Of a stretch of DNA of 64,000 nt, positions 7,201 through 44,862 are shown piece after piece. Below the pieces are notes generated by a model. That model searched no databases. It was not told the DNA's origin and worked only from the letters and a program-made list of their open reading frames with translations. Numbering within the stretch: position 1 is the stretch's first letter; every line of letters begins with the position of its first letter. This DNA comes from Thermoflexibacter ruber. GTDB taxonomy: Bacteria; Bacteroidota; Bacteroidia; Cytophagales; Thermoflexibacteraceae. The stretch covers positions 107,852 through 171,851 of the forward strand of contig NZ_FONY01000002.1 in the NCBI RefSeq assembly GCF_900113045.1, in the 5' to 3' direction. A program made the position numbers and the translations under genes.

Positions 7201-10200
7201 GAGCTGTTGCCGCCCAGCCTGCACGATTGTTAAAACCAGCTACTCGGAGTTCATTGACCCAAATACATACTTGCTTAGGAGCTTCATCTGCACTTTCTGG
7301 ATTACGCAAGCCAATCATTAGGGTTTGTACTGAACTAATATCGGGATTACCCACTACCGTCAGTTTAAATCTATCTACCGTTTCGCTATAAGGGATTCTC
7401 AATGAAAGGTTTTGGCGATTGCGATTGGCTTTGAGGTTTATCAAATCTTGGATAGCTACATCTATTTCGTTTTCTATTGCCCAAATCAGTCGCGGGTCTT
7501 GTGTTCCTTTGGGGGTCATGACCAGAGGCACTTCAATTTCATAGAAATTTTCTTTAAAATCTGTTCCCAGACGCAAGAAAGCAGTCATTTCCCCGTCTTT
7601 GGTGGTTTCACTTTCCGCATGGATAAACATTTTTACGCGGTCATAGTTCACCATATCTAAGATGATGTTTTTATATACTGCTCTGCTATCCCTATCTCCT
7701 AAATTATCTACACAAAGCCTCAAAGACTGTTCGTTTCTGCGGGCATTGGTGTTAGAGGCAAAATCCAAATCTCTAATAAAACCCGGAGGCAGTACATAGG
7801 GAGTATTTACTCCGTCAAACGCTCCATTTTCTTCTGCATTTACTGAGGAAACTGTAAACTGAGCATTATAAGGCTCTTTGGGCAGGGTAAAACCGGGCTG
7901 AGTCAAATCCTCTAAGAATGGTCGCCATTGTGTGCCTACAAACTGAAACTGAGCCAGACGTAAGACCACAGGTTGTTGCCAATCTGTAAGATAAGTACGA
8001 ATAAAACGGATAGATTTAAAGTTCTCAATATTGCCAAACTTACTATCAAACTTTCGGATAGGTATGCGAAACTGATACCAAGTAACCTGCTCGCCTCCTG
8101 CATTGGCAATGACCTTAGAAACCACATAGGGATTGTTTGCTAAATTATTGGGGCGTAAATCTACTTGGTACTCAAAGTAGGTTTCTAAGTCATTGAGGGT
8201 ATTATCTCTGTTCAAATCTTCATTGTCAGGGAAAGTAGAAGAAGAGGCTGTACCTGCATTGGCAGGAGAGTTGCCGTCTTGCCCATTAAAAAAGCGATAG
8301 CGGTCAAATACAGAAAATTCTCCACCACCAAAGGTTTCATCTAAATAATACCTAAAATTATCTCCAGAGGGGTCTTGCTCAAATTGGTTATAGACGTTGG
8401 GGGCTAATACTCCTCTGATTCTGTCTAAATATCTTCTGAAAAAAGTTCGCTCCTCCTCATCGGTTAGCCCATCCATACCTACATCTTGGCGTTCTCTGGC
8501 TCCATTTTCTGCGGAAAAGGCATTGGTCAGGTAAGGCTGTCGGGTAACTTTTCCCCAAGGAGTGATAGAAAAATCTCTTTGATTGTCATTAGAAGGAAGC
8601 CCATTTTCAAAGCCATGACGTGAATCTGGAATATAATCTTCTGAAATACTACCAATGTTAAAAACGAGTTTACCACCTGTATTGTTGTTGGTTCTAACGA
8701 CCTGACCATTGATATTTCTTGAGATTTGCCCCGTTGTCCCTTGAATAAAAGGGTCTAAAAGCCAAAACTCTATGTACTGAACGTTAATATTGTCAAAATC
8801 AATATCATGAGTAATTGCTTTGGTAATAGAAGCGAAGTTGCCTCTTGGGTTTTTCAAAGTCCCGTTGTTATTCAAGTCTGGATTGTAGTTATACATACCA
8901 CGCTCGTCGGGATAGTAGGCTAAATCTAAGGTAAACTCAGGCTGATTGATAATTTGAGGGTCTCTCCCTTTGAAAATTTCGTTGAAAAGGATTGCTCTCG
9001 TATAGTGATTGAAGGGTGCGCTGACCACAGGTCTTTGTCCTAAACCTCCCGTACCTGCCCCTTGCGTAGCGAAAGCAGTGATGTCTATGCCGTACCAAGC
9101 CAATTTTGCCCTTTTGTAGGCATAAGCTAAAGTATCAGTTTTATTGGTTGGTAAAAACTGAAAAGGGGTAGTTCCCAAAGACCAAGTTTGTGCTTGACGA
9201 GTCAAATCATAGGGAATTTCTGCCGCCTCAAAGTCATCTATATAAGAAGTACCTCCATCTTTGCCAATGAGCTGATTAGCTCCCGGTATAATGGTAGCAA
9301 ACTCTCCCGCAAAGGTAAAATTAGAAGGTTCTTTGGTACTTATAAATGGCAGTTTATCAATAAGTTTAGTCAAAATAGGCGCATCTTTCCTGATATTGAC
9401 CCCTAAGCCAAACATCGTATTGCGTGTGGGTTCTGTACCTATGCTAACCCTTGTGATGTTCGGTCTTTCGTTCAGGTGCATGAGCGTGCCTGTGAAGCGA
9501 ATATCTTTGCTAAATCTGTATTCTATATCAGTGCCAAAAAGGTTACGTGTTTGGAAATTGAACAAGTCAGAGCGTTCATATTGGATGATAATTTCTTTTC
9601 CTGAACGTAAAACTCCCTCATTGGTAATTCTTACTCGCCCAAACTGATAATCCACAGAGAAATCGCGTCCCTCTTGCAAAACTGTTCCACCTGCTCTGAC
9701 GCTTACAGAGTTAGGAGAAATATTAATCCCCGGCAGTTGGATTTCTGTACCTAAGGCAGATTGAAAACTTCCTTTTAAGAAAAACTTACTTTTACTCGTC
9801 AAAAGAATCGCGTCTGCTTTCGTTCCTCTATACAACTCATTAAAAACGTATTTGTTAATGAGTTGTCTTTCCAATTCAGGGATAAATTTGCTTTCCAATT
9901 TACTCCCAAAAGGTTCAAGGACAGGAAAGATAATTTTCCCTAAGCGTGCATCTATAGTAACTCCTTCAATATAATCAAAATTGCCGTCAGGCTGCGGGTC
10001 GTTGTTCTGATTGAGCTTGTCCATATTCAGCACTTGCACCAAAGGAATGTCTTTGAAATTTACTCCCTCTTGTAGATTAGGGTTGTCAATGCCTGTGATG
10101 TCATCTCTGTAAATAATTCTCAACTGAAAGTTCTGACGGTCTAACTGATTGGTTTGCAAGCCGTAGATATTTTTCATCATCAAATCCCACATTGGCAAGT

Positions 10201-11818
10201 CTGTACGAATCGTAGAAGGTCGTAACATTTTCATAATGATGACATTATTGGCAGGTTGGTTTTGATAACTTTCGGTGAGTTCGCCTACTTTGTACCTTTG
10301 ACCATTGTAAGTATATTCATAAGAAACAGCTAAAATCTCATCGTTTCGTAAAGGCGTTACCAAAGAGATGTAGCCTAAATTGGCATTAAAGGTGTATTCT
10401 CTTTCGTCTAATTTCCTTGCACCTCTAAGTAGCTCATAATCTGTCCCTTTCACCAGCCTATATTGGTCTTCTAATATCCTACTTACTTGGTCGACATCTC
10501 TAATAGCTTGATTTTGAGTAACTGTTTGAAAGAGCTGGTTAGCATCATTGTTAGAAGGGGAAGCAGGATTAAACTGACCAATAGCAGGGTTATCTTTTCT
10601 GAAAGGATTGCCTTCTCCCATGTCCATAAAAGCTACTACATTGCGAAGAGTTTGCGTATTGTTATTTCTATTGGTTACATATACTTCCAAGCGAGTAACT
10701 ACCACCCCAGAAGTTACTACGGGGATAGTGCGCAAAGAAGGCTCATAATTACCTCTAAAAAAATGCCCTAAGAAAAAATGTCTATTATCTTCATATTGGT
10801 CAGCACGAATCTCGAACTGCCGAGCCTGCGCTCCGCCTCTTACTCTGAGGGTCTCGGCTGTTCCTCTTTGATTAGAAACAATCGTACTTACCCAAAGTTT
10901 TCCAAAACGCAAGCGCGTTTTTACCCCCAATAGATTACGTCCTCCTGTAATCAAACTGTTACTTGTGGGCATACTTACGTTCCCAATTTGTACCTCCTGA
11001 ACGATGTCCTCCTCAGAAGAAGAATATCCTATTTTAAAATTGTTTTCGTATTGGAAAGTACTTTTGGTATCCCAGTTTACATTGAGATTGAGTTTCTCAC
11101 CTATTTTTCCTATAAGATTCATCTGGATTTGTTGGTCAAAAAATAAACCTCCGTTGCGTTGTTGGCGAATAGGAATCTGCGGATTGTCAATGCGTTGCCA
11201 CCTTCCGCCAAAGTCGAGCATGACAGAGCCATTGGGCTGTAGGTCTAAATTACTTCCCCCGAAAAGTCGGTCAAAAGTTTTTCCAAGAGGAATAAGAGGA
11301 ATTGCTCTATTCCCTCCACCAGAAGTAACTGTTCCTGCTCCGCCTTGCGATTCAGTCAGTTTTTTCCAATATTGACGATTGAGTTCCTCTGACCTGATTT
11401 TCAAGTAAGTATCAAAAGGAATATTAGAGGCGGGTCTAAATTCATTATCTCCAATTTTTTCATATACAGTGTAAAACTTGCCACTACTGTCCAGCTCTAT
11501 GCGGGTATTAAAACCACTTGGGTTTCTCATGAGTAGGGGCGAGGTACGCTGACGAAAAGGAGAGAAAAAGCCACCATACTGCGAGCCATACCTATCTCTA
11601 AAAAATAAAGAGCGTTTAGTGGTGTCTTCTAATGGCAAGTTTAGTAGATTGGAAGTCAATAAACTGAAACTATGTTTGGTAAGGTTATGATAATCTACAC
11701 CTGCTGACTTTTGTTTTTTTTCTTCTTTTTTTGATTCCGCTAATAGACTCCCGTTCAATAAAATAAATTGGGCGAAAACCAAAGCAAAAGTGGAAAGAAT
11801 ATTATTTTTTACAAACAT
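4208..11818 (-). CDS. sprA: SprA/Sov, type IX secretion outer-membrane translocon
   Basis: A 2536-residue protein, the size of SprA (about 2400 residues) and far too large for most other outer-membrane proteins. It has a signal peptide (MFVKNNILSTFALVFAQFIL), a repeated beta-rich body, and family landmarks such as GTSYIDDFEAAEIPYDLTRQ and a C-terminal beta strand ending VRFNLAQ. SprA forms the very large beta-barrel through which type IX substrates, including gliding adhesins, cross the outer membrane. A lysine/glutamate-rich, helix-forming segment of about 150 residues lies near residues 1920-2075 (bases about 5590-6060). No other type IX gene is in the window, as is common since these genes are scattered. 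A consensus promoter lies about 130 bases upstream. Confidence 0.97.
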   Translation of the reverse strand: MFVKNNILSTFALVFAQFILLNGSLLAESKKEEKKQKSAGVDYHNLTKHSFSLLTSNLLNLPLEDTTKRSLFFRDRYGSQYGGFFSPFRQRTSPLLMRNPSGFNTRIELDSSGKFYTVYEKIGDNEFRPASNIPFDTYLKIRSEELNRQYWKKLTESQGGAGTVTSGGGNRAIPLIPLGKTFDRLFGGSNLDLQPNGSVMLDFGGRWQRIDNPQIPIRQQRNGGLFFDQQIQMNLIGKIGEKLNLNVNWDTKSTFQYENNFKIGYSSSEEDIVQEVQIGNVSMPTSNSLITGGRNLLGVKTRLRFGKLWVSTIVSNQRGTAETLRVRGGAQARQFEIRADQYEDNRHFFLGHFFRGNYEPSLRTIPVVTSGVVVTRLEVYVTNRNNNTQTLRNVVAFMDMGEGNPFRKDNPAIGQFNPASPSNNDANQLFQTVTQNQAIRDVDQVSRILEDQYRLVKGTDYELLRGARKLDEREYTFNANLGYISLVTPLRNDEILAVSYEYTYNGQRYKVGELTESYQNQPANNVIIMKMLRPSTIRTDLPMWDLMMKNIYGLQTNQLDRQNFQLRIIYRDDITGIDNPNLQEGVNFKDIPLVQVLNMDKLNQNNDPQPDGNFDYIEGVTIDARLGKIIFPVLEPFGSKLESKFIPELERQLINKYVFNELYRGTKADAILLTSKSKFFLKGSFQSALGTEIQLPGINISPNSVSVRAGGTVLQEGRDFSVDYQFGRVRITNEGVLRSGKEIIIQYERSDLFNFQTRNLFGTDIEYRFSKDIRFTGTLMHLNERPNITRVSIGTEPTRNTMFGLGVNIRKDAPILTKLIDKLPFISTKEPSNFTFAGEFATIIPGANQLIGKDGGTSYIDDFEAAEIPYDLTRQAQTWSLGTTPFQFLPTNKTDTLAYAYKRAKLAWYGIDITAFATQGAGTGGLGQRPVVSAPFNHYTRAILFNEIFKGRDPQIINQPEFTLDLAYYPDERGMYNYNPDLNNNGTLKNPRGNFASITKAITHDIDFDNINVQYIEFWLLDPFIQGTTGQISRNINGQVVRTNNNTGGKLVFNIGSISEDYIPDSRHGFENGLPSNDNQRDFSITPWGKVTRQPYLTNAFSAENGARERQDVGMDGLTDEEERTFFRRYLDRIRGVLAPNVYNQFEQDPSGDNFRYYLDETFGGGEFSVFDRYRFFNGQDGNSPANAGTASSSTFPDNEDLNRDNTLNDLETYFEYQVDLRPNNLANNPYVVSKVIANAGGEQVTWYQFRIPIRKFDSKFGNIENFKSIRFIRTYLTDWQQPVVLRLAQFQFVGTQWRPFLEDLTQPGFTLPKEPYNAQFTVSSVNAEENGAFDGVNTPYVLPPGFIRDLDFASNTNARRNEQSLRLCVDNLGDRDSRAVYKNIILDMVNYDRVKMFIHAESETTKDGEMTAFLRLGTDFKENFYEIEVPLVMTPKGTQDPRLIWAIENEIDVAIQDLINLKANRNRQNLSLRIPYSETVDRFKLTVVGNPDISSVQTLMIGLRNPESADEAPKQVCIWVNELRVAGFNNRAGWAATARLNTQLADLALVNASVRYSSPFFGGIQDKISARTRDHNLEYDISANVKLDKFLLGKLGISLPMFVSYERRLSTPYFNPLDPDMPLDLALETRPNTDSDAFLRLVREEGIRRSINFTNVKYTNPKPGAKPQLWSLSNFVLNYSYNDLRNRNIRIDEYNERFTRVGIGYAYTSTRPAWEPFKKSTELDSKYLKFIKDFNLNPLPNNINIRADVDRRFVKTQLRNADLTTLGILPLYEKAFTFNRFYQMRWGISRNLNVDYQSQVFAMIDEPLGEINRDLVDPNREVTKRDSVIRNVLRLGRMKNYQQTIGATYKLPFDKFPITDWLDADVRYQAGYTWTAGAVGIADTLGNNMQNNNNVNLQGQLNLRKLYDKSRFLQQVNNPNKTVQLPPRGEEKKRRLQARIKRYEKRKAGIEARLSGKPIVLESKNLNLPDTTKAKVRRLIRKIDKYELKIQDLRYDTAKFAKRISKYKEKVSNWKKSLLPVRVDTIKAEKLSASDTLKYRKRLEKIEKKLKKFADKIKEIEEKQQKDKLPRKPPAKPVQVITRLLMSVQKVNFTYSANNSTVFPGVLSVPSYFGIDQNNGAPGVGFILGSQNSNIKNMASQNGWLSRSPLQNNSFAQGNTTNLGLRVTVEPFKDFDMQLDAKKIRSANYSEVFRFNTSLEQHRSETTTRSGQYSISFFSLRTTFARDDAAFNSPLFDNMIAYRNTIKARLDAANPEPTEYRLNSQDVLIPAFLAAYSGKDASGQSLSAFPQIPMPNWRITYSGLSNLDMFKRMFRSVQITHSYTSDYNVGGYTSSLFYGPTYVDLNIREQDIPLAAFDPLTGDLVPVLVMNQVNITENFNPLLGVNLRTVSNMTFNIQYRKQRSIALNLTNVQVTELKNTDISVDVSYTKAGLKIPFKIDGGYKVLKNDLTFRLALTARDTRTLQRRLNDDEEQVTTVTAGNLNIQISPTIQYAVNQRVNVQFYFDRSINQPYISNSFKRTNTNFGLRVRFNLAQ

Positions 11819-32690: not shown

Positions 32691-32720
32691 TGTAGTTTTT
32701 TTAACAAACAAAACTTAAGT

Positions 32721-35700
32721 ATGAAAATGAAAAACAAAGACCGACTCTGGGTAGGTTATATTCCTATCCTTTCCTTCCTATTCTTTTTTTTAATCAGTTC
32801 ATTCTCTTATGCACAAAAAAGAGTCAGCGGAAAAGTTACTGACTCTGATGGCGGTGCGGCACTTCCTGGCGTAACTGTGTTAGTCAAAGGCACTTCTTCT
32901 GGTACTGCCACTGACGCTGACGGTAACTACTCGATTTCTGTTCCTGCGGGTAGTTCTGATGTCTTGGTATTCTCTTTTGTAGGCTACAAGACGCAAGAGG
33001 TAGCAATAGGCAATCAAAGTACAATCAACGTAAGTTTAGTAGCTGATGTAACTGCTTTGCAAGAAGTAGTGGTAACAGGGTACGGCACTGAGCAAAAGAA
33101 AGATATTATTGGTGCAGTTGCTGTAGTAAGTACTAAAGAACTTTTGGCAACTCCCGCAGGTAATATTACTCAGCAGTTGCAAGGGAGAGCGGCAGGGGTA
33201 GTAATCGGTACGAGCGGGGCACCTGGCGCAGGGGCAAAAGTGCGTATTCGCGGGTTTAACTCCTTCGGTGGCAATGACCCTCTTTATATTATAGATGGTG
33301 TACCTACCACAGCACCGAACGCCTTTAACCCACAAGACGTTGAATCCTTACAAGTATTAAAAGATGCTACTGCCGCTTCTATCTATGGGGCGCGTGCTTC
33401 TAATGGGGTAGTAATTATCACTACTAAGCAGGGCAAGGCGGGCAGACCAAAGCTAAGCTACGATACTTACTATGGTATGCAGTCTGTAAATCGCTTCCCC
33501 GAGTTACTCAACCCTACCCAATACGGTGAATTGCTTTGGACTCAGTTTAGGAATGCGGGACAAACTCCCACACATCCCATTTATGGTAGTGGTCCTACTC
33601 CTGTTATTCCAGAGTTCTTAGTAGCAGGACCAGACGTAGGAGTAAATTCCAATAATCCTAATACAAATCCTGCCCTTTACAATGTAACAGACTTCAGCCG
33701 TCCTATTCACCAAATCACAAGGGCAAACAGAGAGGGAACTGACTGGTACAAAGAAATTTTTAAAAATGCACCTATTCAAAGCCATCAGATTTCGGCAAGT
33801 GGTGGAACTGACGCAGCTACTTACTCTTTAGGCTTGAACTACTTTAATCAAAGAGGGGTAGTTATTCATACGGGGTATGAGCGTTTTACTGTTCGTGCAA
33901 ATACCATGTTCAAACCCAAAGACCGCATTCGCATAGGGGAAAATATGCAGATTTCTTACGAAGAATTGGTAGGTACACAAGCGGATAACCCTGATGCCCT
34001 TTTGACAGGGGAAGGTGGTGCGATTGCTCAAGCATATCGTATGCAATCTATTGTACCTGTGTATGATATTAACGGAAACTTTGCAGGTACTCGTGGCGCA
34101 GGTTTGGGTAATGCAAGTAGCCCTGTGGCTGACCAAGCAAGAAGCAAAGACAACAAAAACTTTGCTTATCGTATCTTTGGTAATGTGTTTGCTGAGTTAG
34201 ATATTTTAAAAGATTTGACTTTCCGTTCCTCATTTGGCTTAGACTTCACTACGCGTTATCGTCAAGCATACGGATTTAGAACCTTTGAAAGAGCAGAGAA
34301 TACGGCAAGTAACTCGTACTCAGAAAGAAATGACTGGGGAAGAAGTTGGACGTTTACTAATACTTTGACCTATAAAAAGACTTTTGCAGAAGACCACAAC
34401 GTAAAAGTAATGGTAGGGACAGAAGCAATTAAAATCAATGGTAGAGGGGTAGGCGGCTCGAGAATCAACTTTTTCGTAGATGACCCTGATTTCAGAGTGT
34501 TAGATAGAGGACAGCCCGTAGGTCAAAACAACTTTAGCTATGGTTTCAGAGAATCTCTTTACTCACTTTTTGGTAGAGCAGACTATACGTTTAAAGATAG
34601 GTACTTAATGAACATTACTGTACGTAGAGATGGCTCGTCTAAGTTCGGTCCTGAGAACCGATTTGGGGTGTTCCCTGCCATAGGCTTAGGCTGGAGAATT
34701 TCTCAGGAAGAGTTTATGAAGGACATTACTTGGATTACTGATTTGAAACTAAGAGGTGGCTGGGGACAGGTAGGTAGCCAAAATAACGTTTCTGCTGCGA
34801 ATCAATACAGTTTCTATCGTTCCACACCGGGTAACTCCTCTTATGACATCACAGGCTCAAGCACAAACGTAGTGGCTGGTTTTGACCTTGACCGCATTGG
34901 TAACTTAGCGACTAAGTGGGAAACTGGGGTAATGACCAATATAGGTATAGATGCTACTTTATTTGATGGAAAATGGGACATCAATGCCGAGTGGTACACT
35001 CGTGAGGCAAAAGGCTTATTAATAGGTCGCCAAGCACCTTTTACGGAGCCTGATGCAGCTCAGCCAGCCATCAACGTAGGTAATGTAAGAAACAGGGGTA
35101 TAGACTTGGCGATTACAAACAGAGGAAATATCACTGAAGATTTGCGTTATACAGCTACGCTTACTGTAACTCGCTACAAAAACGAAGTATTAAATATTGA
35201 CGGAAATCCAAGAACCTTCTTCACTGGTGGTGATACCCGCTTCGGTAACGTAACGCGTACACAACAAGGACTACCTGTTTCTGTATTCTGGGGGTATATC
35301 ATAGACGGCTTCTTTAATACAGAGTCAGAAGCTACTGCCGCTCCGAACCAACCTATACGCAAAAAAGTGGGTGGTTGGAAACTTAGAGATATTAACGGCG
35401 ATGGAGTAGTCAATGCAGATGACCAGACCAATATCGGTTCTCCACACCCCAAATTGCAGACAGGTTTGAATGTGGAGTTAGCATATAAGGGCTTTGATTT
35501 TTCTATGTTCTTATTCTGGAACTATGGCAATAGTATCTTTAACTATAACCGTTGGTGGATTGACTTTAACTCTTTCCAAGGCAATAGAAGTACCAGAATG
35601 TTAAACGAGTCTTGGACACCTCAGTTAGGCAATGCGGCAAAACTACCTATTTTAGACGTTTCTGACAATCAAAGTGGCAATATTCCAAGTACTTATTACA

Positions 35701-35960
35701 TAGAATCTGGCTCTTATCTCAGAATGAGAACTATGCAGTTAGGTTATACGATTCCTAAATCTTTGTTGAATAAAGTAGGCATCGCAAGTGCAAGGGCTTA
35801 TATCCAAGGGCAAAACCTCTTTACTGTTACGCCTTATTCTGGTACAGACCCTGACGTAGCTTTGCAAAACAATAACCAAGGTGACTTAGGCTTAGGGGTA
35901 GATAGAGGTTTATTCCCTAACTCACGTCAGTTATTGATAGGTATTAACATTGGTTTCTAA
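32721..35960 (+). CDS. susC: SusC/RagA TonB-linked outer-membrane receptor (copy 1)
   Basis: A 1079-residue receptor. Signal peptide to about residue 31 (FSYAQ), carboxypeptidase-D-like N-terminal domain (KRVSGKVTDSDGGAALPGVT), plug with EVVVTGYGTEQKKDIIGAVA and the SusC box LYIIDGVPTTAP followed by VLKDATAASIYGARASNGVV, then a beta-barrel ending LLIGINIGF. It imports large nutrients, usually glycans or peptides, together with SusD. The first 40 residues are nearly identical to those of the paralogue at 39607, also in DNA. Substrate not determinable. Confidence 0.97.
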   Translation: MKMKNKDRLWVGYIPILSFLFFFLISSFSYAQKRVSGKVTDSDGGAALPGVTVLVKGTSSGTATDADGNYSISVPAGSSDVLVFSFVGYKTQEVAIGNQSTINVSLVADVTALQEVVVTGYGTEQKKDIIGAVAVVSTKELLATPAGNITQQLQGRAAGVVIGTSGAPGAGAKVRIRGFNSFGGNDPLYIIDGVPTTAPNAFNPQDVESLQVLKDATAASIYGARASNGVVIITTKQGKAGRPKLSYDTYYGMQSVNRFPELLNPTQYGELLWTQFRNAGQTPTHPIYGSGPTPVIPEFLVAGPDVGVNSNNPNTNPALYNVTDFSRPIHQITRANREGTDWYKEIFKNAPIQSHQISASGGTDAATYSLGLNYFNQRGVVIHTGYERFTVRANTMFKPKDRIRIGENMQISYEELVGTQADNPDALLTGEGGAIAQAYRMQSIVPVYDINGNFAGTRGAGLGNASSPVADQARSKDNKNFAYRIFGNVFAELDILKDLTFRSSFGLDFTTRYRQAYGFRTFERAENTASNSYSERNDWGRSWTFTNTLTYKKTFAEDHNVKVMVGTEAIKINGRGVGGSRINFFVDDPDFRVLDRGQPVGQNNFSYGFRESLYSLFGRADYTFKDRYLMNITVRRDGSSKFGPENRFGVFPAIGLGWRISQEEFMKDITWITDLKLRGGWGQVGSQNNVSAANQYSFYRSTPGNSSYDITGSSTNVVAGFDLDRIGNLATKWETGVMTNIGIDATLFDGKWDINAEWYTREAKGLLIGRQAPFTEPDAAQPAINVGNVRNRGIDLAITNRGNITEDLRYTATLTVTRYKNEVLNIDGNPRTFFTGGDTRFGNVTRTQQGLPVSVFWGYIIDGFFNTESEATAAPNQPIRKKVGGWKLRDINGDGVVNADDQTNIGSPHPKLQTGLNVELAYKGFDFSMFLFWNYGNSIFNYNRWWIDFNSFQGNRSTRMLNESWTPQLGNAAKLPILDVSDNQSGNIPSTYYIESGSYLRMRTMQLGYTIPKSLLNKVGIASARAYIQGQNLFTVTPYSGTDPDVALQNNNQGDLGLGVDRGLFPNSRQLLIGINIGF

Positions 35961-36024
35961 AAATTTTTAAAACCTTTTTTTTCATCATTCTGTTAAAAAG
36001 TAATCCATTAAAAATCATAGTGAT

Positions 36025-37746
36025 ATGAAAAATATAAAAGTCAAACTTATTTTTACGTTTGCTCTTCTTTTGGGAGTAACGTATGCTTGTAAGGATAGTT
36101 TCCTTGACCAGCCTCCCATTGGTACATTCAGTGCCAATGTATTGCAAAACAAAGCAGGGGCTGAGGGTATGTTGATTGGTGCTTATTCTATGTTGGATGG
36201 GATAGGTGGACCCGGCGGTTGGCAGTCTGCGGGTAGCAATTGGGTGTATGGCAGTATTTGTGGGAATGATGCTTATAAGGGAACTGATGCTGGGGACCAA
36301 GTAGATATTAACTCCATTGAGAGGTTTGAGCCTCTGCCAAATAATGGATACTTTATTACTGTTTGGAGGCATTTGTATGATGCTATTGGTCGTGCTAACG
36401 ATGCAATTCGTTTTGCAAACGAAGCCAAAGATATGTCCCAAGCAGATAAAACTCGCCTAATAGCAGAAGCACGCTTCCTCAGAGGGCATTATCATTTTGA
36501 ACTGAGAAAAATCTTCAATAGGGCTCCTTTTATAGACGAAACGGTTACAGATTATCTTTTGCCAAATGATAAGGAGATATTCCCTAATATAGAAGCTGAC
36601 TTCAAATTTGCTTTTGATAATTTACCTGAAACCTTAGCTGATGCAGGTAGAGCAAACAAGTGGGCAGCAGGTGCATTCTTAGGAAAAACATATATGTTCC
36701 AAAAGAAATATACAGAAGCAAAACAAATCTTTGACCAAGTAATTGCCAATGGTAGGACTACCCGAGGAGCCAAATACGCCTTGAATGCATCTTTCCACGA
36801 TAACTTCCGAGCCGCTACCAAAAATAGTGCTGAATCCGTTTTTGCTGTTCAGTATTCTGTTAATGACGGAGCAAATGGGAACAACGGAGATGCAGGTGGT
36901 GTATTGAACTATCCTTATAATAACGGACCTGGTGGTTGCTGTGGTTTCTTCCAACCTACTCAAAACTTGGTCAATGCTTACCAAGTAGATGCTAATGGCT
37001 TGCCTTTATTAGAAACATTTAATAATGCAGATGTAAAAAATGACCAAGGCATTGCCTCCAATCAACCTTTTGAACCGCATACAGGTCCTCTTGACCCTCG
37101 CTTGGATTGGACAGTAGGTCGCAGAGGTATTCCTTACTTAGATTGGGGACCTCACGGAGGACAGAACTGGATTCGCGACCAAGCATACGGCGGTCCTTAC
37201 AGCCCTAAGAAAAATGTTTACTACAAAGCAGAAGAAGGCAGACTAAGCGATGCAACAGGCTGGACAAGAGGTTACAGTGCTAATAACTATACTATCATGC
37301 GCTATGCAGACGTACTGTTAATGGCGGCAGAAGCAGAAGCAGAGGTGGGCAGCTTGGCAAGAGCTTTAGATTATGTAAATCAAGTAAGGAGGAGAGCCGC
37401 TAACCCAGCGGGTTTTGTTAAGAATCCTGATGGTTCAAATGCCGCTAACTACAGAATAGGAGAGTATAGTTCCTTCCCAAGTAAGGAGTTTGCTATCAGA
37501 GCCATTCGCTTTGAGAGAAGGCTGGAGTTGGCTATGGAAGGACATCGCTTCTTTGACTTAGTACGCTGGGGAATTGCTGCAGAGAATATCAATGAGTACT
37601 TCAGAGTAGAGCAAACAAAACGTCAGTATTTACGAGGTGCGAGGTTCACCGCAGGAAAGAATGAGTACTTCCCTATTCCTGAGCAGGCGATAGTTCGTAG
37701 TTTGAAGGATGGTCAGCCTACTTTAAAGCAAAATCCAGGATACTAA
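36025..37746 (+). CDS. susD: SusD/RagB lipoprotein (copy 1)
   Basis: A 573-residue surface lipoprotein lid for SusC. The lipid-anchored Cys is in LLGVTYACKDSF. SusD hallmarks are LIAEARFLRGHYHFELRKIF, the TPR-like helices, RYADVLLMAAEAEAEVGSLA, RRLELAMEGHRFFDLVRWG and the closing NEYFPIPEQ with LKQNPGY. It starts 64 bases after susC and ends in a strong terminator. It shares a GPGGCCGF segment with its paralogue at 42974. Confidence 0.96.
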   Translation: MKNIKVKLIFTFALLLGVTYACKDSFLDQPPIGTFSANVLQNKAGAEGMLIGAYSMLDGIGGPGGWQSAGSNWVYGSICGNDAYKGTDAGDQVDINSIERFEPLPNNGYFITVWRHLYDAIGRANDAIRFANEAKDMSQADKTRLIAEARFLRGHYHFELRKIFNRAPFIDETVTDYLLPNDKEIFPNIEADFKFAFDNLPETLADAGRANKWAAGAFLGKTYMFQKKYTEAKQIFDQVIANGRTTRGAKYALNASFHDNFRAATKNSAESVFAVQYSVNDGANGNNGDAGGVLNYPYNNGPGGCCGFFQPTQNLVNAYQVDANGLPLLETFNNADVKNDQGIASNQPFEPHTGPLDPRLDWTVGRRGIPYLDWGPHGGQNWIRDQAYGGPYSPKKNVYYKAEEGRLSDATGWTRGYSANNYTIMRYADVLLMAAEAEAEVGSLARALDYVNQVRRRAANPAGFVKNPDGSNAANYRIGEYSSFPSKEFAIRAIRFERRLELAMEGHRFFDLVRWGIAAENINEYFRVEQTKRQYLRGARFTAGKNEYFPIPEQAIVRSLKDGQPTLKQNPGY

Positions 37747-37788
37747 GGATTGCTTTGTTTAAAGTTTTTTGTTAATAGTTAATCTAAC

Positions 37789-37835
37789 AAAGTAAAGCGT
37801 TGGTAAGATCTTCATTCTTATCAACGCTTTACTTT
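37789..37835. terminator. Terminator of SusCD pair 1
   Basis: Arms 37789-37807 and 37817-37835 form a 19-bp stem with one G-U pair and a 9-base loop, flanked by A and T runs. It separates the SusCD pair from the next gene. Confidence 0.85.
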
Positions 37836-37889
37836 TAAAAGAAATAAGAATAAAAATCGCATTTATTAGGATTCTATGGGTTGAAAAAA

Positions 37890-37901
37890 CAAAACGTTTT
37901 G
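37890..37901. promoter_or_regulatory. CAAAACGTTTTG palindrome
   Basis: A perfect 12-base palindrome with a central CG, 69 bases before the VCBS/haem lipoprotein start. Central-CG palindromes of the AAACGTTT kind are typical of LacI-family operators. No LacI gene is in the window. Confidence 0.35.
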
Positions 37902-37969
37902 ATAAATGAGAATATACGCTTAACTTCATGTAATTACTGAATTTTGTCTTTCAATCTAATTGAATAAAT

Positions 37970-39487
37970 ATGCAGAAAACTCTACTTCCTTTTTTGTCCA
38001 AGCTAATTGGATTCATAACTTTAGCCTTTTGTTTATCTAATTGTCAGTCAGAAGGTAGTTCTAAGACAGCAGACTTCACAGGAGAACAACTTGCTCAGAA
38101 ATATTGTGCATCTTGTCATGCTTTTGTATCGCCTGAACTATTGCCCAAGAATACTTGGTTAATGGGTGTGCTTCCTGAAATGAGAGCAAGGCTGCTTACA
38201 TACTATAATTTTGAAGATGATTATTTAAACTATTCTAAAAACTTACATAAACCACTAATTACTTCTCAGGATTGGCAAAAAATAGTAAATTATTTCGCTA
38301 ACTCTGCACCTGATTCCTTAACTTCTTTTGCAAGCGCACCCGTAAAAACAGGCTTAGAATACTTTATACCATACTTTATTAATGAGGGTAGTGATGTCCC
38401 TCCTCATATTACTATGCTCAAGGTAAATTCTTTGAAAAAAAGCATCTATATATGCGAAGGAGATAAAAACCAATTACTTATTTTTGATAGGTATGGTAAA
38501 AAATATGATAGTTTGCTGGTAGATTCGCCCATTACCGACCTTGTTTTTGAAGGAGATGAACTCTATTTACTTACTATTGGAAAGATGAAGCCCAACGACG
38601 ATTCTTTGGGTAAATTGCTTAGGTGGAGAAAAGGTGAAGTTCCGCAAGAGGTGATGAATCACTTGAATCGCCTTGTTTTTATGCAGTTAGCAGACCTCAA
38701 CCAAGACGGAAAAAAAGATATGCTTATTGCAGAATACGGACACGAAAAAGGTAGCTTGGCTTGGTTTGAAATAGGGAAAGAAAAACCACATAAACATGTT
38801 TTGAATACTTATTCAGGAAATTTAAAGTCTTATTTGAAAGATATGAATGGGGACGGGTGGGTAGATATTGTATCCTTAGTTGCTCAGATGAATGAGGGCA
38901 TTTTTACTTATTACAATCAAGGCGATGGGAAGTTTAGGGAAAAAAATATATTGACATTTTTACCCGTTTTTGGTGTTACTGATTTTGAGTTGATAGATTG
39001 GGATAATGATGGTGATTGGGATATTTTACTGACCAGTGGAGATAATGCGGACTATTCTGTTACGTTAAAAAATTATCATGGATTTCGTATTTACCTCAAT
39101 GATGGGAAAAATAACTTTATAGAAAAATATTTTTACCCACTCAATGGAGCATTTAAGGTAAGAGCAAGAGATTACGACCAAGATGGTGATATAGATATTG
39201 CCCTGATTTCCTTTTTTCCAGACTATGCAAACCTTACCAATGAAAGCTTTGTGTATTTAAAAAATAAAAACTCTTCTAATTTTAGCTTTGAGGCAGGTAC
39301 TTTCAAGGAAGCAATACAAGGGCATTGGATGGTTATGGAAACAGAAGATATAGATGATGACGGAGATTTAGATATAGTACTTGGCTCGTTTACCTCAGCT
39401 CCCGTAGCCCCTCCACCTCATTGGACTAATCTTTGGAAAAGTAAAAGGTACTCCTTTTTACTTTTAGAAAATCAATATATAAAATGA
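37970..39487 (+). CDS. Lipoprotein with c-type haem motif and VCBS/FG-GAP repeats
   Basis: A 505-residue exported protein. The leader ends LAFCLSNCQS, so a lipid anchor at Cys25 is likely. CASCH (residues 46-50) is a single haem c site in a short cytochrome-like segment with LPEMRAR behind it. The rest is a beta-propeller of FG-GAP/VCBS repeats, with calcium-loop motifs DLNQDGKKD, DMNGDGWVD, DWDNDGDWD, DYDQDGDID and DIDDDGDLD. It lies between two SusCD pairs in the same direction, with a terminator before it, so it is a separate unit, perhaps a surface redox or binding protein related to SusCD substrates. No function is established. Confidence 0.85.
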   Translation: MQKTLLPFLSKLIGFITLAFCLSNCQSEGSSKTADFTGEQLAQKYCASCHAFVSPELLPKNTWLMGVLPEMRARLLTYYNFEDDYLNYSKNLHKPLITSQDWQKIVNYFANSAPDSLTSFASAPVKTGLEYFIPYFINEGSDVPPHITMLKVNSLKKSIYICEGDKNQLLIFDRYGKKYDSLLVDSPITDLVFEGDELYLLTIGKMKPNDDSLGKLLRWRKGEVPQEVMNHLNRLVFMQLADLNQDGKKDMLIAEYGHEKGSLAWFEIGKEKPHKHVLNTYSGNLKSYLKDMNGDGWVDIVSLVAQMNEGIFTYYNQGDGKFREKNILTFLPVFGVTDFELIDWDNDGDWDILLTSGDNADYSVTLKNYHGFRIYLNDGKNNFIEKYFYPLNGAFKVRARDYDQDGDIDIALISFFPDYANLTNESFVYLKNKNSSNFSFEAGTFKEAIQGHWMVMETEDIDDDGDLDIVLGSFTSAPVAPPPHWTNLWKSKRYSFLLLENQYIK

Positions 39488-39606
39488 GAAATGTTAATTT
39501 CAACTTAAAAAAACTACATTTTTCTTGCATAATTAACAATTATTATATCTAATTTTATACTGTATTTCACAGTTATAGTTAAGTTTTTTTAACAAACAAA
39601 ATTGGT

Positions 39607-42600
39607 ATGAAAATGAAAAACAAAGACCGACTCTGGGTAGGTTCTATCCCTATCCTTTCTATTCTATTCCTATTATTTATCAGCTCATTTACGTATGCCC
39701 AGAAAAGGGTCAGTGGAAAAGTTACTGACGCTGAGGGCGGCGCTCCTTTGCCAGGAGTTACCGTCTTGGTAAAAGGCACTCAGTCAGGGACAGCCACTGA
39801 CTCAGATGGGAACTACTCCATTGCTGTTCCTGCGGGTAGTTCTGATGTCTTGGTATTTTCTTTTGTAGGTTTCGTTACGCAAGAAGTAGCCGTAGGCAAT
39901 CAAGCAGTTATCAATATAAGCATGCAAGCAGATGTAAAGGCATTACAAGAAGTCATTGTAACAGGGTACTCTACTCAACAAAAGAAAGAAATTACAGGAG
40001 CGATTGCTACTGTTTCTACCAAAGAATTGCTCTCTGTGCCGGCACCTAACTTTGCTCAACAGCTACAAGGCAAGGCAGCGGGGGTTACTATTGGGAATGA
40101 TAACTCCCCCGGTGGAAGTACCATGGTGCGTATTCGTGGTTTTGGTACTATCAATGACAACTCCCCTCTCTATGTAATTGACGGCGTACCTTTCAAATCA
40201 GACAACGGACAAGGTCTGAACAACATCAATCAAAATGATATAGAGTCTATTTCCATTTTGAAAGATGCTTCCGTAGCGTCTATTTACGGGGCGAGGGCTG
40301 GTAATGGGGTAATCATTATCACTACCAAAAAAGGGAAATCAGGTGCGCCCAAAGTAAGTTTTGACGCTTATACGGGCATACAAACTCCACGCAAGTATAT
40401 TGACTTGATGAATGTAAACCAACTGGCAGAGTTAGAGTGGTTGCGCCAACGCAATACAGGGCTTCCTGCGGGACAGACTAATCCATCTTCTGCTCAGTAC
40501 GGCAGTGGTCCGAATCCTGTACTTCCTGACTATATTTTCCCTGCTGGGGCAAGAGAAGGCGACCCAAGAGTAAACCCAGCTAACTACTCTAATGACATTG
40601 ACGACCCAGAGTTTGGAAGAACTAAATTCTTAATTACCAGAGCCAACAAACAAGGGACTGATTGGTGGAGAGAAATAGCAAAACCTGCTATCTGGCAAAA
40701 CTATAACTTGACTGCGTCTGGAGGTACGGACAAGGCAAGGTATATGTTCTCAGGGAATTACTTAGAGCAAAATGGTATCATTATCCATACAGGCTTTAAG
40801 AGATATACTATCAGGGCAAATACAGAGTTCAGTATTAGAAACAGAGCGCGTATAGGGCAAAACTTGCAAATAGGCTATACAGAACGAGTAGAAATGCCTG
40901 CGGGAAATCAAAGCGAGGGAAATCCTGTTTCAGGGGTATATAGGGCGCAACCTATCGTTCCTGTATATGACATCGCTGGGAACTTTGCAGGGCATAAAGG
41001 TACAAACTTAGGAAATGCACAAAACCCTGTTGCCCAATTAGTTCGCAATAAGGACAATAAATACCGTAATATGAGAATTTTTGGTAATGTTTTCGCTGAG
41101 GTGGATATTGCTAAGAATTTAGTTGCGAAGACAAGTTTTGGCTTAGACTATAATTTAGGGCATGGCAGTTTTTACAGTATCCGCAATATAGAAGCCGCAG
41201 AACCAAGTGCTTCCAACCGCTTAGACGTAAATACTTATTGGAACTCTAACTGGACTTGGACAAATACTTTGACCTATAATCGTACTTTCAACGAAGTGCA
41301 TAAAGTAAATGCCTACATAGGCACAGAGGCTATCCGAAACACTTTCAGAGACTTTGGTACAGGACGTAACAACTTCTTTACCGATGACATCAATTATCGT
41401 TTCATCAATGCAGGGGCTGGCTTACCTAACTCCTTTGGTGGTGGTGGTGAATGGGCATTGTTTTCTATTTTTGGTAAAGCTGAATATGGATTTAAGGAAA
41501 AATATTTGTTTTCTGCTACTATTCGTAGAGATGGTTCTTCTCGCTTTGGTCAAGCCAATAGATATGGTGTTTTTCCTGCCTTCAGCGCGGGCTGGGTACT
41601 CTCTGATGAGGAATTCCTGAAAGATAATGGAATTATTAATTTTGCCAAAATCAGAGCAGGTTGGGGACAGTCAGGAAACCATGACGGATTTGGAGATTAT
41701 CCTGCTTACTCTACGCTTGGTAGTAGCATTAGCGAAACTTTTTATGATATTAGGGGTACAAGCACCTCAGCAGTATTGGGTTTCGCGCCACAAAGTACAG
41801 GAAATCCAAATATTAAATGGGAAGCAACAGCTACTACCAACGTGGGGTTAGATGTAACCTTGCTGAAGAACTTAGAGCTGAACATAGATGTCTATAACAG
41901 AAAGACTACCGACTTGCTCTACAATATTCAACAACCTGCTACTGCGGGAAATAACATAGGCGCACCTGTATCTATTGTTACAAACATTGGCTCTATGCAG
42001 ACCAGAGGTTTGGACTTTGCTCTTACCTACAATGGTAATGCGATGAACAATGAATTCCAGTATAGTATTAATGCAAATGTTTCTTTATATAGAAACAAGC
42101 TACTTAATATCTCTGGTATTGATAATGACTTCATTGCCGACGGAGGTAGTAGGATAGGCAACCTTACTCGCAGCATTGTGGGGCGACCTTTGAGTATGTT
42201 CTGGGGGTACTTCCAAGATGGTATATTCCGTAGCCAAGCCGAAGTAGAAGCAGCAAATGCTTTAGACGGCAATCGTAATACACCTTACCAAGATGCTATC
42301 CGTCCTGGTCGTTTTCGCTTCCGCGATATTAATGGAGATGGCGTAGTCAATGCAGATGATAATACAGTAATAGGCAATCCTCACCCTAAGTTTACCTATG
42401 GTTTTAACCTCAATGCCTCTTACAAAGGTTTTGATTTGACTGTATTCTTGCAAGGTGTGCAGGGAAATGATATTTTCAACTTCTTCAAATATCAAACTGA
42501 CTTCAACGTATTCCAAGGAAACAGAAGTACTAGACTGTTAGACACTTGGACAGAGCAAAATCCTAATGCCTCTATGCCAAGATGGGATAGCGATAATGGT

Positions 42601-42894
42601 AGTGCTGATGCTGTACCATCGTCTTATTATGTAGAAAAGGGGTCTTATCTAAGAGCAAGAAATATACAAATAGGTTATAATTTACCTTCTGCGAGTTTGA
42701 GCAAAGTAGGCATAGAGCGCTTGCGTGTGTATTTGCAAGCACAAAACCTGTTTACTATTACCAAGTATAGTGGCTTAGACCCCGAGATTACCTTAGCTAA
42801 CTTTGGTACAGGGGGCGACCGTACTATTGGGGTGGATTATGGAGCGTATCCTGCACCTAAAACCTTCTTAGTAGGTTTGAGTATTGGTTTCTAA
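39607..42894 (+). CDS. susC: SusC/RagA TonB-linked outer-membrane receptor (copy 2)
   Basis: A 1095-residue paralogue of the protein at 32721. Same signal peptide and carboxypeptidase-like domain (QKRVSGKVTDAEGGAPLPGV), plug motifs EVIVTGYSTQQKKEITGAIA and LYVIDGVPFKSD, and terminal strand FLVGLSIGF. The opening 130 bases and the 20-base leader upstream are almost the same as in copy 1, while the barrel has diverged in loops, as expected after duplication and change of ligand. It is followed directly by its susD. Confidence 0.97.
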   Translation: MKMKNKDRLWVGSIPILSILFLLFISSFTYAQKRVSGKVTDAEGGAPLPGVTVLVKGTQSGTATDSDGNYSIAVPAGSSDVLVFSFVGFVTQEVAVGNQAVINISMQADVKALQEVIVTGYSTQQKKEITGAIATVSTKELLSVPAPNFAQQLQGKAAGVTIGNDNSPGGSTMVRIRGFGTINDNSPLYVIDGVPFKSDNGQGLNNINQNDIESISILKDASVASIYGARAGNGVIIITTKKGKSGAPKVSFDAYTGIQTPRKYIDLMNVNQLAELEWLRQRNTGLPAGQTNPSSAQYGSGPNPVLPDYIFPAGAREGDPRVNPANYSNDIDDPEFGRTKFLITRANKQGTDWWREIAKPAIWQNYNLTASGGTDKARYMFSGNYLEQNGIIIHTGFKRYTIRANTEFSIRNRARIGQNLQIGYTERVEMPAGNQSEGNPVSGVYRAQPIVPVYDIAGNFAGHKGTNLGNAQNPVAQLVRNKDNKYRNMRIFGNVFAEVDIAKNLVAKTSFGLDYNLGHGSFYSIRNIEAAEPSASNRLDVNTYWNSNWTWTNTLTYNRTFNEVHKVNAYIGTEAIRNTFRDFGTGRNNFFTDDINYRFINAGAGLPNSFGGGGEWALFSIFGKAEYGFKEKYLFSATIRRDGSSRFGQANRYGVFPAFSAGWVLSDEEFLKDNGIINFAKIRAGWGQSGNHDGFGDYPAYSTLGSSISETFYDIRGTSTSAVLGFAPQSTGNPNIKWEATATTNVGLDVTLLKNLELNIDVYNRKTTDLLYNIQQPATAGNNIGAPVSIVTNIGSMQTRGLDFALTYNGNAMNNEFQYSINANVSLYRNKLLNISGIDNDFIADGGSRIGNLTRSIVGRPLSMFWGYFQDGIFRSQAEVEAANALDGNRNTPYQDAIRPGRFRFRDINGDGVVNADDNTVIGNPHPKFTYGFNLNASYKGFDLTVFLQGVQGNDIFNFFKYQTDFNVFQGNRSTRLLDTWTEQNPNASMPRWDSDNGSADAVPSSYYVEKGSYLRARNIQIGYNLPSASLSKVGIERLRVYLQAQNLFTITKYSGLDPEITLANFGTGGDRTIGVDYGAYPAPKTFLVGLSIGF

Positions 42895-42973
42895 TTAGTA
42901 AACTTTTTCAAGTTTTTTTAAACAAAAATGTTACTCATCATATTTTAAATAAAGGTCTAATTTTCTGATAAAT

Positions 42974-44680
42974 ATGAAAAAAATTTTAGTTTTTACTTTC
43001 ATTCTAATTGTTGCCTTAGTGTATGCTTGTGGGGAAAAGTTCCTTACAAAAGAACCTTTGGGCGTAGTGAGTGAGCCTGCTCTGCAAAGTGCTAAAGGAG
43101 CAGATGCACTCTTGATAGCGGCGTATTCTTCTTTGGACGGGTACTCTGGTTGGGGCAATGGAGGACCTTGGCAAGGGTCAGCAACCAATTGGGTATTTGG
43201 TAGCATTACAGGGGGAGATGCTTACAAAGGAAGTGACCCTGGCGACCAGCCTGCTATTACACCTATTGAGAGAATGGCAGGTCTGCCTAATAATGAGTAT
43301 TTTGAAACTCGCTGGAGAGTATTGTACGATGGAATTTCTCGCGCTAACTATGCACTGAGAGCTATTAAGGGAGCTAAGGATTTAACTGATGCTAATAAAA
43401 CAGCAAAAACAGCAGAAGGTCGTTTCCTAAGAGGACACTATCACTTTGAACTGAAAAAAATGTGGAATATGGTGCCTTATGTAGATGAAAATGCTACTGA
43501 TTTTAAAATTCCTAATGACAAAGACATCTACCCACAAATAGAGGCAGACTTGAAGTTTGCAGTAGATAACCTACCTCTGCGTCAATCAGATGTAGGAAGA
43601 GCAACCAAAGGTGCAGCACAAGCACTGCTTGGCAAAGTTTTCCTTTTCCAAAAGAAATTCAATGAAGCTAAGCAACAGTTTGATGCAGTAGTAGCCAGTG
43701 GAATATATAGTCTTGCTGCTTGCTATCATGACAACTTTAACCCTGCTACTAAAAACGGACCTGAATCTGTTTTTGCTGTGCAATCTTCTGTCAATGATGG
43801 TAGCGCAGATAACCTAAATGGGAACTATGGAGAAATTTTGAACTATCCTTACACAGGCGGTCCAGGCGGGTGCTGCGGTTTTCACCAACCCTCTCAGAAT
43901 TTAGTCAATGCTTTCCAAGTAGATGCTAACGGTTTGCCTTTGTTAGATACTTATAACAATACTGATGTTAAAAATGACCAAGGTATTCCTTCTAATAGTC
44001 CATTTACACCTCATACAGGTCCGCTTGACCCTCGCTTGGATTGGACGGTAGGGCGTAGGGGTATTCCTTATTTGGATTGGGGTCCCCACCCAGGTCCAGC
44101 TTGGATTCGCGACCAAGCCTTTGGAGGTCCTTATGCTCCTAAGAAAAACGTATTCTACCGCTCTCAACAAGGCACGCTCTCTGGTGCTTCTGGCTGGGCG
44201 CAGGGGGCAAATGCTAATAACTACAATATTATCCGCTATGCAGACGTATTGCTCATGTTAGCTGAGTGCGAAGTAGAGTTAGGGAATTTAGAAAGAGCAA
44301 GAGCCTTGGTAAACCAAGTAAGAAATAGAGCAAAAAGTGGGTGCGTAGTGAGAAATCCAGATAACACTCCTGCGGCGAATTACAGAGTTGAGCCATACAA
44401 TACTCCTTGGACAAGCAAAGAGTTTGCTACTAAGGCTGTACGCTTCGAGAGAAGAATAGAGTTGGGCATGGAAGGACACCGTTTCTTTGACTTGGTGCGT
44501 TGGGGCATCGCAGAGCAGGAGTTGAACGCTTACTATGCGAAAGAAGGCACGCTGAGAAGCTACTTGCAGGGAGCAAGATTCACCAGAGGGAAGAACGAGT
44601 ACTACCCTATTCCTCAACAGCAAATCGTGCTTTCCACAGCAGGTGGTCAGCCTACCTTAAAACAAAATCCGGGGTATTAA
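42974..44680 (+). CDS. susD: SusD/RagB lipoprotein (copy 2)
   Basis: A 568-residue lipoprotein paralogous to the one at 36025. Lipid Cys in VALVYACGEKF; helical core AEGRFLRGHYHFELKKMWNM, RYADVLLMLAECEVELGNLE, RRIELGMEGHRFFDLVRWG; C-terminal YYPIPQQ with LKQNPGY. GPGGCCGF and DPRLDWTVGRRGIPYLDWG are shared word for word with copy 1, so the ligand pocket may be related. It starts 79 bases after its susC. Confidence 0.96.
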   Translation: MKKILVFTFILIVALVYACGEKFLTKEPLGVVSEPALQSAKGADALLIAAYSSLDGYSGWGNGGPWQGSATNWVFGSITGGDAYKGSDPGDQPAITPIERMAGLPNNEYFETRWRVLYDGISRANYALRAIKGAKDLTDANKTAKTAEGRFLRGHYHFELKKMWNMVPYVDENATDFKIPNDKDIYPQIEADLKFAVDNLPLRQSDVGRATKGAAQALLGKVFLFQKKFNEAKQQFDAVVASGIYSLAACYHDNFNPATKNGPESVFAVQSSVNDGSADNLNGNYGEILNYPYTGGPGGCCGFHQPSQNLVNAFQVDANGLPLLDTYNNTDVKNDQGIPSNSPFTPHTGPLDPRLDWTVGRRGIPYLDWGPHPGPAWIRDQAFGGPYAPKKNVFYRSQQGTLSGASGWAQGANANNYNIIRYADVLLMLAECEVELGNLERARALVNQVRNRAKSGCVVRNPDNTPAANYRVEPYNTPWTSKEFATKAVRFERRIELGMEGHRFFDLVRWGIAEQELNAYYAKEGTLRSYLQGARFTRGKNEYYPIPQQQIVLSTAGGQPTLKQNPGY

Positions 44681-44731
44681 TCACTCAAGTTTTTTCTTTT
44701 TTCAAAACTACTTGGTAGAAAAAACTTATGC

Positions 44732-44775
44732 AAAGCCAGCGTTAGTGAGTCAGATGACTTGCTAACGCTGGCTTT
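44732..44775 (+). terminator. Terminator of SusCD pair 2
   Basis: AAAGCCAGCGTTAG (44732-44745) pairs perfectly with CTAACGCTGGCTTT (44762-44775), followed by further T. It starts 51 bases after the susD stop. Confidence 0.88.
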
Positions 44776-44862
44776 TTAGCTAAAAAAACTCTTTCAAATT
44801 CTTATATAAATTTTTGAAAATTACACTATATTAGTCGTTAGATTCTCGCAAATCAGATTTTT

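Follow-up and report, generated by a model that had tools for sequence, protein, structure and literature searches.

A tandem SusC-SusD locus and its intervening gene

We analyzed a 64-kb stretch of the Thermoflexibacter ruber genome (contig NZ_FONY01000002.1, positions 107,852 to 171,851; hereafter the window) in which five open reading frames (ORFs), all on the plus strand, lie in the order SusC1-SusD1-lipoprotein-SusC2-SusD2 (Table 1), each at the place that an earlier note on this DNA had given for it. The lipoprotein, here called CYT, joins a putative c-type haem domain to an FG-GAP propeller, and genes for its relatives recur near SusCD genes in other bacteria. In known SusCD systems, SusD captures the cargo that SusC imports. 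Both SusC proteins score far above the cut-off of NCBIfam TIGR04056 (SusC/RagA; 873 bits for SusC1 and 886 for SusC2, cut-off 368), both SusD proteins do the same with Pfam SusD_RagB (PF07980; 190 bits for SusD1 and 174 for SusD2, cut-off 23.1), and SusC comes first in each pair, with gaps before SusD of 64 bp in pair 1 and 79 bp in pair 2. These family matches and this gene order are shared with Bacteroidota SusCD loci, and we regard the identity of both pairs as SusCD loci as virtually certain. The window locus differs from such loci in that its pairs are in tandem, with a putative haem-c propeller lipoprotein between them, and in that the flanking genes scanned include no glycosidase.

Table 1. 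Features of the SusCD-CYT locus, in window coordinates
Feature	Position	Strand	Evidence
SusC1, TonB-dependent outer-membrane channel, 1079 aa	32721..35960	+	TIGR04056 2.6e-262; CarbopepD_reg_2, Plug, beta-barrel Pfam domains
SusD1 lipoprotein, 573 aa	36025..37746	+	SusD_RagB 7.6e-56; SusD-like_3 5.7e-14
Terminator-like hairpin (20-bp stem) in the SusD1-CYT gap	37789..37835	+	fold energy of 37780-37845, -27.8 kcal/mol (z -10.8 vs 200 shuffles)
Putative haem-c/FG-GAP propeller lipoprotein (CYT), 505 aa	37970..39487	+	CASCH; FG-GAP_3 1.3e-23; predicted structure
Lipobox Cys25 codon	38042..38044	+	ITLAFCLSNCQ; lipobox-like LSNC
CASCH haem-binding site (putative), residues 46-50	38105..38119	+	C46, C49, H50 in 56/56 aligned rows
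Met71 codon, candidate distal haem ligand	38180..38182	+	invariant in 56/56 rows
GDNADYSVTLKNYHG motif, residues 357-371, candidate propeller ligand/active site	39038..39082	+	GDN...K.[YF]HG in 48/56 family rows
SusC2, 1095 aa, SusC1 paralogue	39607..42894	+	TIGR04056 3e-266; 51% identity to SusC1
SusD2 lipoprotein, 568 aa, SusD1 paralogue	42974..44680	+	SusD_RagB 5.4e-51; 63% identity to SusD1
Hairpin, 20-bp stem then T run, terminator-like, after SusD2	44732..44775	+	fold energy of 44681-44820, -45.9 kcal/mol (z -7.8)

The two pairs are paralogous, as the earlier note had supposed: identity is 51% between the SusC proteins (1107 alignment columns) and 63% between the SusD proteins (575 columns), and judged by their sequences they are paralogues of moderate age, not close copies. 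Its observation of near-identical SusC leaders was also borne out. The 5′ ends of the SusC genes, leader DNA included, are where they are most similar (32700-33080 and 39586-39966), with DNA identities of 86, 78, and 75% in the first three 40-codon blocks compared with 58% for the whole gene; this extra similarity could stem from gene conversion or from selection acting on the leader. Both SusD1 and SusD2 carry GPGGCCGF and DPRLDWTVGRRGIPYLDWG, again as reported. Among the 94 SusD-type ORFs that we gathered, 15 contain GGCCG and 41 contain DPRxDxTxGRxG, and the motifs common to the two window proteins are, on this sequence comparison, those of a wider SusD clade. A third SusC-SusD pair of the same clade lies on the same contig about 42 kb downstream, on the opposite strand (L106, G000:C55:194622-196322). 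Its SusD is 60% identical to SusD2 and clusters on the SusD tree with those of other genomes, apart from the window pairs, and no haem lipoprotein is encoded in its 20-kb stretch.

The CYT protein and its family

CYT has the composition that the earlier note had read from it, a haem-c site and a calcium-loop propeller in an anchored protein: a lipobox-like Cys25 is followed by CASCH at residues 46 to 50, with Met71 lying 21 residues past His50, and by FG-GAP_3 matches in four stretches (83.7 bits, cut-off 26.9). A search with the single protein retrieved no relative of known structure at an E value of 1; the family profile retrieved CRTAC1 (6.9e-6), integrins, and weak cytochrome matches. The profile of the N-terminal domain matched 41 PDB sequences down to an E value of 10, all of them by name c-type cytochromes or haem-c subunits, led by the diheme cytochrome 3u99 (E value, 0.0028). 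We assign this domain as a putative haem-c domain because its CxxCH is conserved and its profile and fold matches are consistent, if weak, with the Pfam cytochrome models staying below cut-off.

The predicted full structure (18-row alignment; mean pLDDT, 85.9) has a helical N-terminal domain followed by a beta-strand domain that aligns with propellers over residues 128 to 505; modeled alone on 54 alignment rows, the N-terminal domain reached a pLDDT of 84.9. The best VIA-align matches of the propeller are to aldos-2-ulose dehydratase (PDB 4a7k, 4a7y, and 4a7z; Z of about 30 over 342 to 346 residues), followed by LGI1, integrin alpha chains, and CRTAC1 (Z of 26 to 28; for CRTAC1, 26.0 over 345 residues), and the top Foldseek match is CRTAC1 (1.5e-11). 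The likeness to aldos-2-ulose dehydratase is known from the fold alone: identity is 10%, and the enzyme has chains of about 880 residues with further parts. In one account of VCBS propellers (PMC8023676), these are grouped with integrins and aldos-2-ulose dehydratases are included, and a text search of it for the word cytochrome gave no match. CYT also shares its character as an FG-GAP propeller lipoprotein, and a similar gene position, with large CRTAC1-like lipoproteins of the UnbV_ASPIC/FG-GAP type. Those proteins are roughly 1100 to 1275 aa long, carry a UnbV_ASPIC domain, and lack the motif GDN...K.[YF]HG, whereas the window protein is 505 aa long, contains CxxCH, and has no match to UnbV_ASPIC (PF07593), falling outside the six UnbV_ASPIC matches in its own genome.

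CYT relatives at an E value of 1e-60 or below occur in at least 36 of 395 Bacteroidota genomes, that of the window included; in another search, of 58 genomes besides that of the window, 9 proved to encode full-length relatives. A single scan of genome contigs yielded three partial propeller matches and one close relative (L037). A locus picked as a control (L193, 2680-11898) turned out to hold a SusC-SusD-UnbV-haloperoxidase-CYT run that was absent from the matches listed, so the family is more numerous than those matches. CxxCH is kept in 57 of 58 CYT ORFs, the exception being a 956-aa distant match (L151); the earlier note had named a nonconserved CASCH as grounds for abandoning its reading, and those grounds fall away. 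For the alignment and tree we set aside L151, which lacks CxxCH, and L143 (417 aa, with CGSCH), leaving 56 rows. Cys46, Cys49, His50, Met71, Trp102, Arg234, His370, and Gly371 are invariant in all 56, and Lys367 is present in 55. The motif GDN...K.[YF]HG is found in 48 of the 56 CYT rows, whereas none of 31 UnbV/ASPIC-cluster ORFs has it, a distribution implying that the propeller has a family-specific site beside its generic calcium loops. We are highly confident that the haem-c domain and propeller together form one conserved family.

Linkage of CYT genes to SusCD and other partners

For 24 of 56 CYT genes, a same-strand SusD gene is present no more than 8 kb upstream, against 0.85 expected from the SusD densities of their genomes, and in 20,000 draws of random placement the maximum was 6 SusD-linked genes. 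The count covers 56 genes at 55 loci (L117 holds two), with L151 and L037 (outside the density table) omitted. The 23 SusD genes involved are all of SusD-type Pfam (21 SusD_RagB and 2 SusD-like_2); two of the 24 positives (L113 and L124) are SusD-like_2, and the expected density rests on the SusD_RagB type. For genomes G217 and G338, SusD candidate counts above the listed matches were used, which raises the expectation. SusD adjoins CYT directly, within 230 bp, at seven of the 56 genes, the window included, and the SusC-SusD-UnbV-haloperoxidase-CYT runs of L123 and L127 contain 4-bp gene overlaps. A functional link between CYT and SusCD loci appears very probable. The earlier note had asked whether the lipoprotein ever accompanies SusCD elsewhere, which it plainly does; the pairing that it called unusual is a real one, but it is not peculiar to this genome, with SusD-linked CYT genes spanning eight families.

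On the CYT tree, the presence of an upstream SusD changes 11 times, at least 8 of these changes being forced by well supported branches, and label shuffles gave a mean of 18 changes, with none of 500 as low as 11. SusCD linkage has thus been gained or lost repeatedly within the CYT family. Inheritance of SusCD and CYT as one unit was considered and is unsupported: the window SusDs are placed without support on the SusD tree, apart from CYT-adjacent SusDs, and the CYT tree, with its forced linkage changes, lends codescent no support either.

A UnbV/ASPIC FG-GAP protein of more than 900 aa lies within 3 kb of 18 of the 56 CYT genes (clustering gave 20, from which a 126-aa fragment in L124 and a 579-aa ORF in L139 were excluded), and the UnbV_ASPIC domain was matched in 20 of the 21 cluster members scanned. 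Ten of the 56 have a vanadium-haloperoxidase-like gene on the same strand within 5 kb, all ten with SusD and UnbV/ASPIC too, giving as the fullest cluster SusC, SusD, UnbV/ASPIC propeller, vanadium-haloperoxidase-like protein, and haem propeller. We base the haloperoxidase assignment on the match of the profile of the nine proteins to the PDB vanadium haloperoxidase 4cit (3.6e-164) and on PAP2, present in all nine; in the wider cluster (n = 11), KxxxxxxR and SRxYGGIH occur in 11 and P[ST]GH in 7. Elsewhere in the T. ruber genome (L109, 7355-15950, contig C42), a UnbV/ASPIC ORF, two haloperoxidase-like genes, an opposite-strand gene, and a second UnbV ORF lie together, with no SusCD in that 20-kb stretch. 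In L139 (7055-15937), from a genome that has just one SusD, two UnbV-cluster ORFs, TPR proteins, and a CYT gene form a single run.

UnbV/ASPIC was also considered as a mark of the window SusD clade and rejected. It lies downstream in 7 of 20 SusD2-like loci without CYT, compared with 5 of 20 control SusD loci, which were hand-picked near the upper end of the SusD_RagB list and are not random, and a further set of SusD1-like loci had it in 5 of 19; the similar rates in clade and control loci imply a broad association with SusCD. In two congeners (G001 and G002, with SusD identities of 60 and 63%; loci L200 and L199), a SusCD pair like pair 1 has a short gene after it, which is Uma2-like in L199, and then a gene for a UnbV/ASPIC protein. 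From gene order, the haem propeller of T. ruber may stand where its congeners carry another FG-GAP lipoprotein.

Candidate functions of the haem propeller

Our computations show the gene identities, the conservation of the family, its statistical linkage to SusCD, and the repeated changes of this linkage on the tree. With moderate confidence, we read CYT as a redox-active accessory of a duplicated SusCD nutrient-uptake locus, for which we infer haem attachment, haem ligands, location, redox role, and cargo. The lipoprotein probably sits on the outer membrane. Its N-terminal c-type haem domain (Cys46-Cys49-His50, perhaps with Met71 as distal ligand) would be fused to a seven-bladed FG-GAP propeller, in which the family-specific Arg234, Lys367, and His370 would bind cargo or a partner; the haem would carry electrons to or from whatever is bound, and this redox step would accompany the capture of cargo by SusD and its TonB-driven import through SusC. 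A task shared by CYT and SusCD is suggested by the recurrence of their linkage. A wider model is tentative and would more probably fail than hold: Bacteroidota might couple TonB-driven SusCD import to an outer-membrane redox reaction, with CYT oxidizing or reducing the cargo or taking electrons from a partner dehydrogenase or haloperoxidase, as a modular subunit that SusCD loci have gained or lost several times.

Several observations weigh against the redox-accessory reading. The N-terminal domain is like small c-type cytochromes (DHC, sulfite dehydrogenase chain 2blf_B) in having CxxCH past its first helix and in its best profile and fold matches, but it has only a single CxxCH and the matches are weak. 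The best fold match has a Z of 6.7, to 3u99 over 59 residues; the best Foldseek E value is 0.74, in a list that includes unrelated capsid rows; and the Pfam model DHC scores 18.1 bits with the whole protein and 22.1 with the N-terminal domain, below its cut-off of 22.2. A loose lipobox pattern is matched by 44 of the 58 CYT ORFs and missed by 14. A search of 12 further genomes from the genus and family of the window, not all of them complete (one at 62%), found no full-length CYT relative. SusD is missing upstream of 32 of the 56 CYT genes, and family f44 (8 genes) keeps CYT in genomes with 0 or 1 SusD, so SusCD is not required for CYT function; moreover, the genes counted for linkage are not independent of one another, since their genomes are related.

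Gene arrangement in the window also counts against a simple joint unit. A strong hairpin and a 223-bp gap part SusD1 from the lipoprotein gene, and SusC2 has its own leader, with DNA like that of the SusC1 leader. Because of the hairpins after SusD1 and SusD2 and the leader DNA common to both SusC genes, we rejected a single operon for all five genes as the likeliest layout; the likeliest prediction is one unit of SusC1-SusD1 and another of the lipoprotein, alone or with SusC2-SusD2. A simple consensus scan listed neither hairpin and gave 29 promoter-like sites compared with 31.0 in shuffles.

The alternative that survives best, though we think it doubtful, is that CYT is an accessory that only binds, much as the surface glycan-binding proteins of Sus systems do, its propeller capturing cargo beside SusD and its haem domain being structural or vestigial. 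According to PMC8023676, beta-propellers in general serve mostly as recognition sites, and the large UnbV/ASPIC FG-GAP lipoproteins that adjoin 18 of the 56 CYT genes, and that follow a similar SusCD pair in the two congeners, would fit such a role. However, C46, C49, H50, and M71 are invariant in all 56 rows, which is hardly expected of a vestigial site and makes one unlikely here. That CYT is redox-active, and does not merely bind, strikes us as an evenly balanced proposition.

We consider it improbable that CYT works on its own as a cytochrome, in a separate electron-transfer or sensing task, and often lies beside SusCD through joint movement with no shared function. The CYT genes without an upstream SusD, the f44 genomes, the hairpin between SusD1 and CYT, and several seemingly unrelated neighbors, among them an ammonium transporter in L046, all agree with this account; it sits poorly with 24 linked genes where 0.85 were expected, in eight families, with the eight or more label changes forced on the tree, and with the tight gene overlaps in some runs. 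A unit for halogen or peroxide chemistry, in which the haloperoxidase-like protein, UnbV/ASPIC propeller, and haem protein act on halide or reactive oxygen to give a product that SusCD takes up, draws on the ten CYT genes with a haloperoxidase-like neighbor and on the 4cit match, PAP2, and conserved motifs of those proteins, but is very unlikely given that 46 of the 56 CYT genes lack such a neighbor, that none lies beside the window locus, and that the two copies in the T. ruber genome lie elsewhere (L109).

The cargo of the redox accessory that we favor is harder to name. Among the nearest other genes in the window are those for an SSF symporter, a HATPase, a GDYXXLXY protein, an alpha/beta hydrolase, and a TPR histidine kinase, and a 2536-aa ORF occupies 4208-11818 on the minus strand. 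A family scan of 14 other genes of the window detected no glycosidase, which leaves room for such enzymes elsewhere in the genome, and the combination of SusCD with glycan-degrading enzymes that makes a polysaccharide utilization locus is likewise absent from those 14 genes. The earlier note had taken the missing glycosidase as a hint that the cargo is not a glycan, which does not follow: some CYT relatives adjoin glycan enzymes, and in one congener (G001, L200) the SusCD pair and UnbV/ASPIC protein are followed by a GH29 fucosidase.

To sample CYT neighborhoods, we scanned 26 neighbors at 15 CYT loci, besides the UnbV, SusD, and haloperoxidase sets, and these serve as examples, not frequencies. 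A CYT gene in L116 (9286-19970) follows GH2, GH20, GH29, and GH92 in one directon, an enzyme set like that for N-glycans; in L048, CYT lies ahead of a 3-keto-disaccharide hydrolase and a Gfo/Idh/MocA gene; and in L141, a ThuA-GSDH-cytochrome-CBM6 protein is encoded downstream. A PL14-like neighbor in L133 was dropped, its match being below the cut-off. Upstream of CYT, other loci have an Asparaginase_2 and a CutC gene (L055, scanned; L121 and L122, by clustering), a dipeptidyl-peptidase-like gene (L142, scanned; L128, by clustering), or a prolyl oligopeptidase (L053). We found the remaining neighbors uninformative: an M14 peptidase (L137), a beta-lactamase-type protein (L138), the ammonium transporter of L046, a cupin (L041), a multihaem-type cytochrome (beside L131), DUF1573 (L114), TPR proteins (L139), and an AraC regulator with an outer-membrane barrel (L050). 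Such neighbors allow a sugar- or peptide-containing cargo, perhaps the remains of glycoproteins. That it contains carbohydrate seems to us no more and no less probable than the contrary, for other CYT relatives adjoin peptidases or unrelated genes.

Neither the combination of a haem-c propeller with SusCD nor its statistical linkage was found in the open literature searched, whose coverage excludes subscription journals; both kinds of gene appear in tables of PMC3174227. The individual parts belong to known kinds. SusCD systems are seen as capture-and-import machines fed by hydrolases. If our reading is true, a conserved lipoprotein with a haem-c domain and a propeller, found time and again with SusCD, would add a redox component to this picture and would offer a handle on SusCD pairs that have no recognized enzyme. 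The presence of CYT beside uptake genes in many related bacteria hints at a connection between uptake and a redox step.

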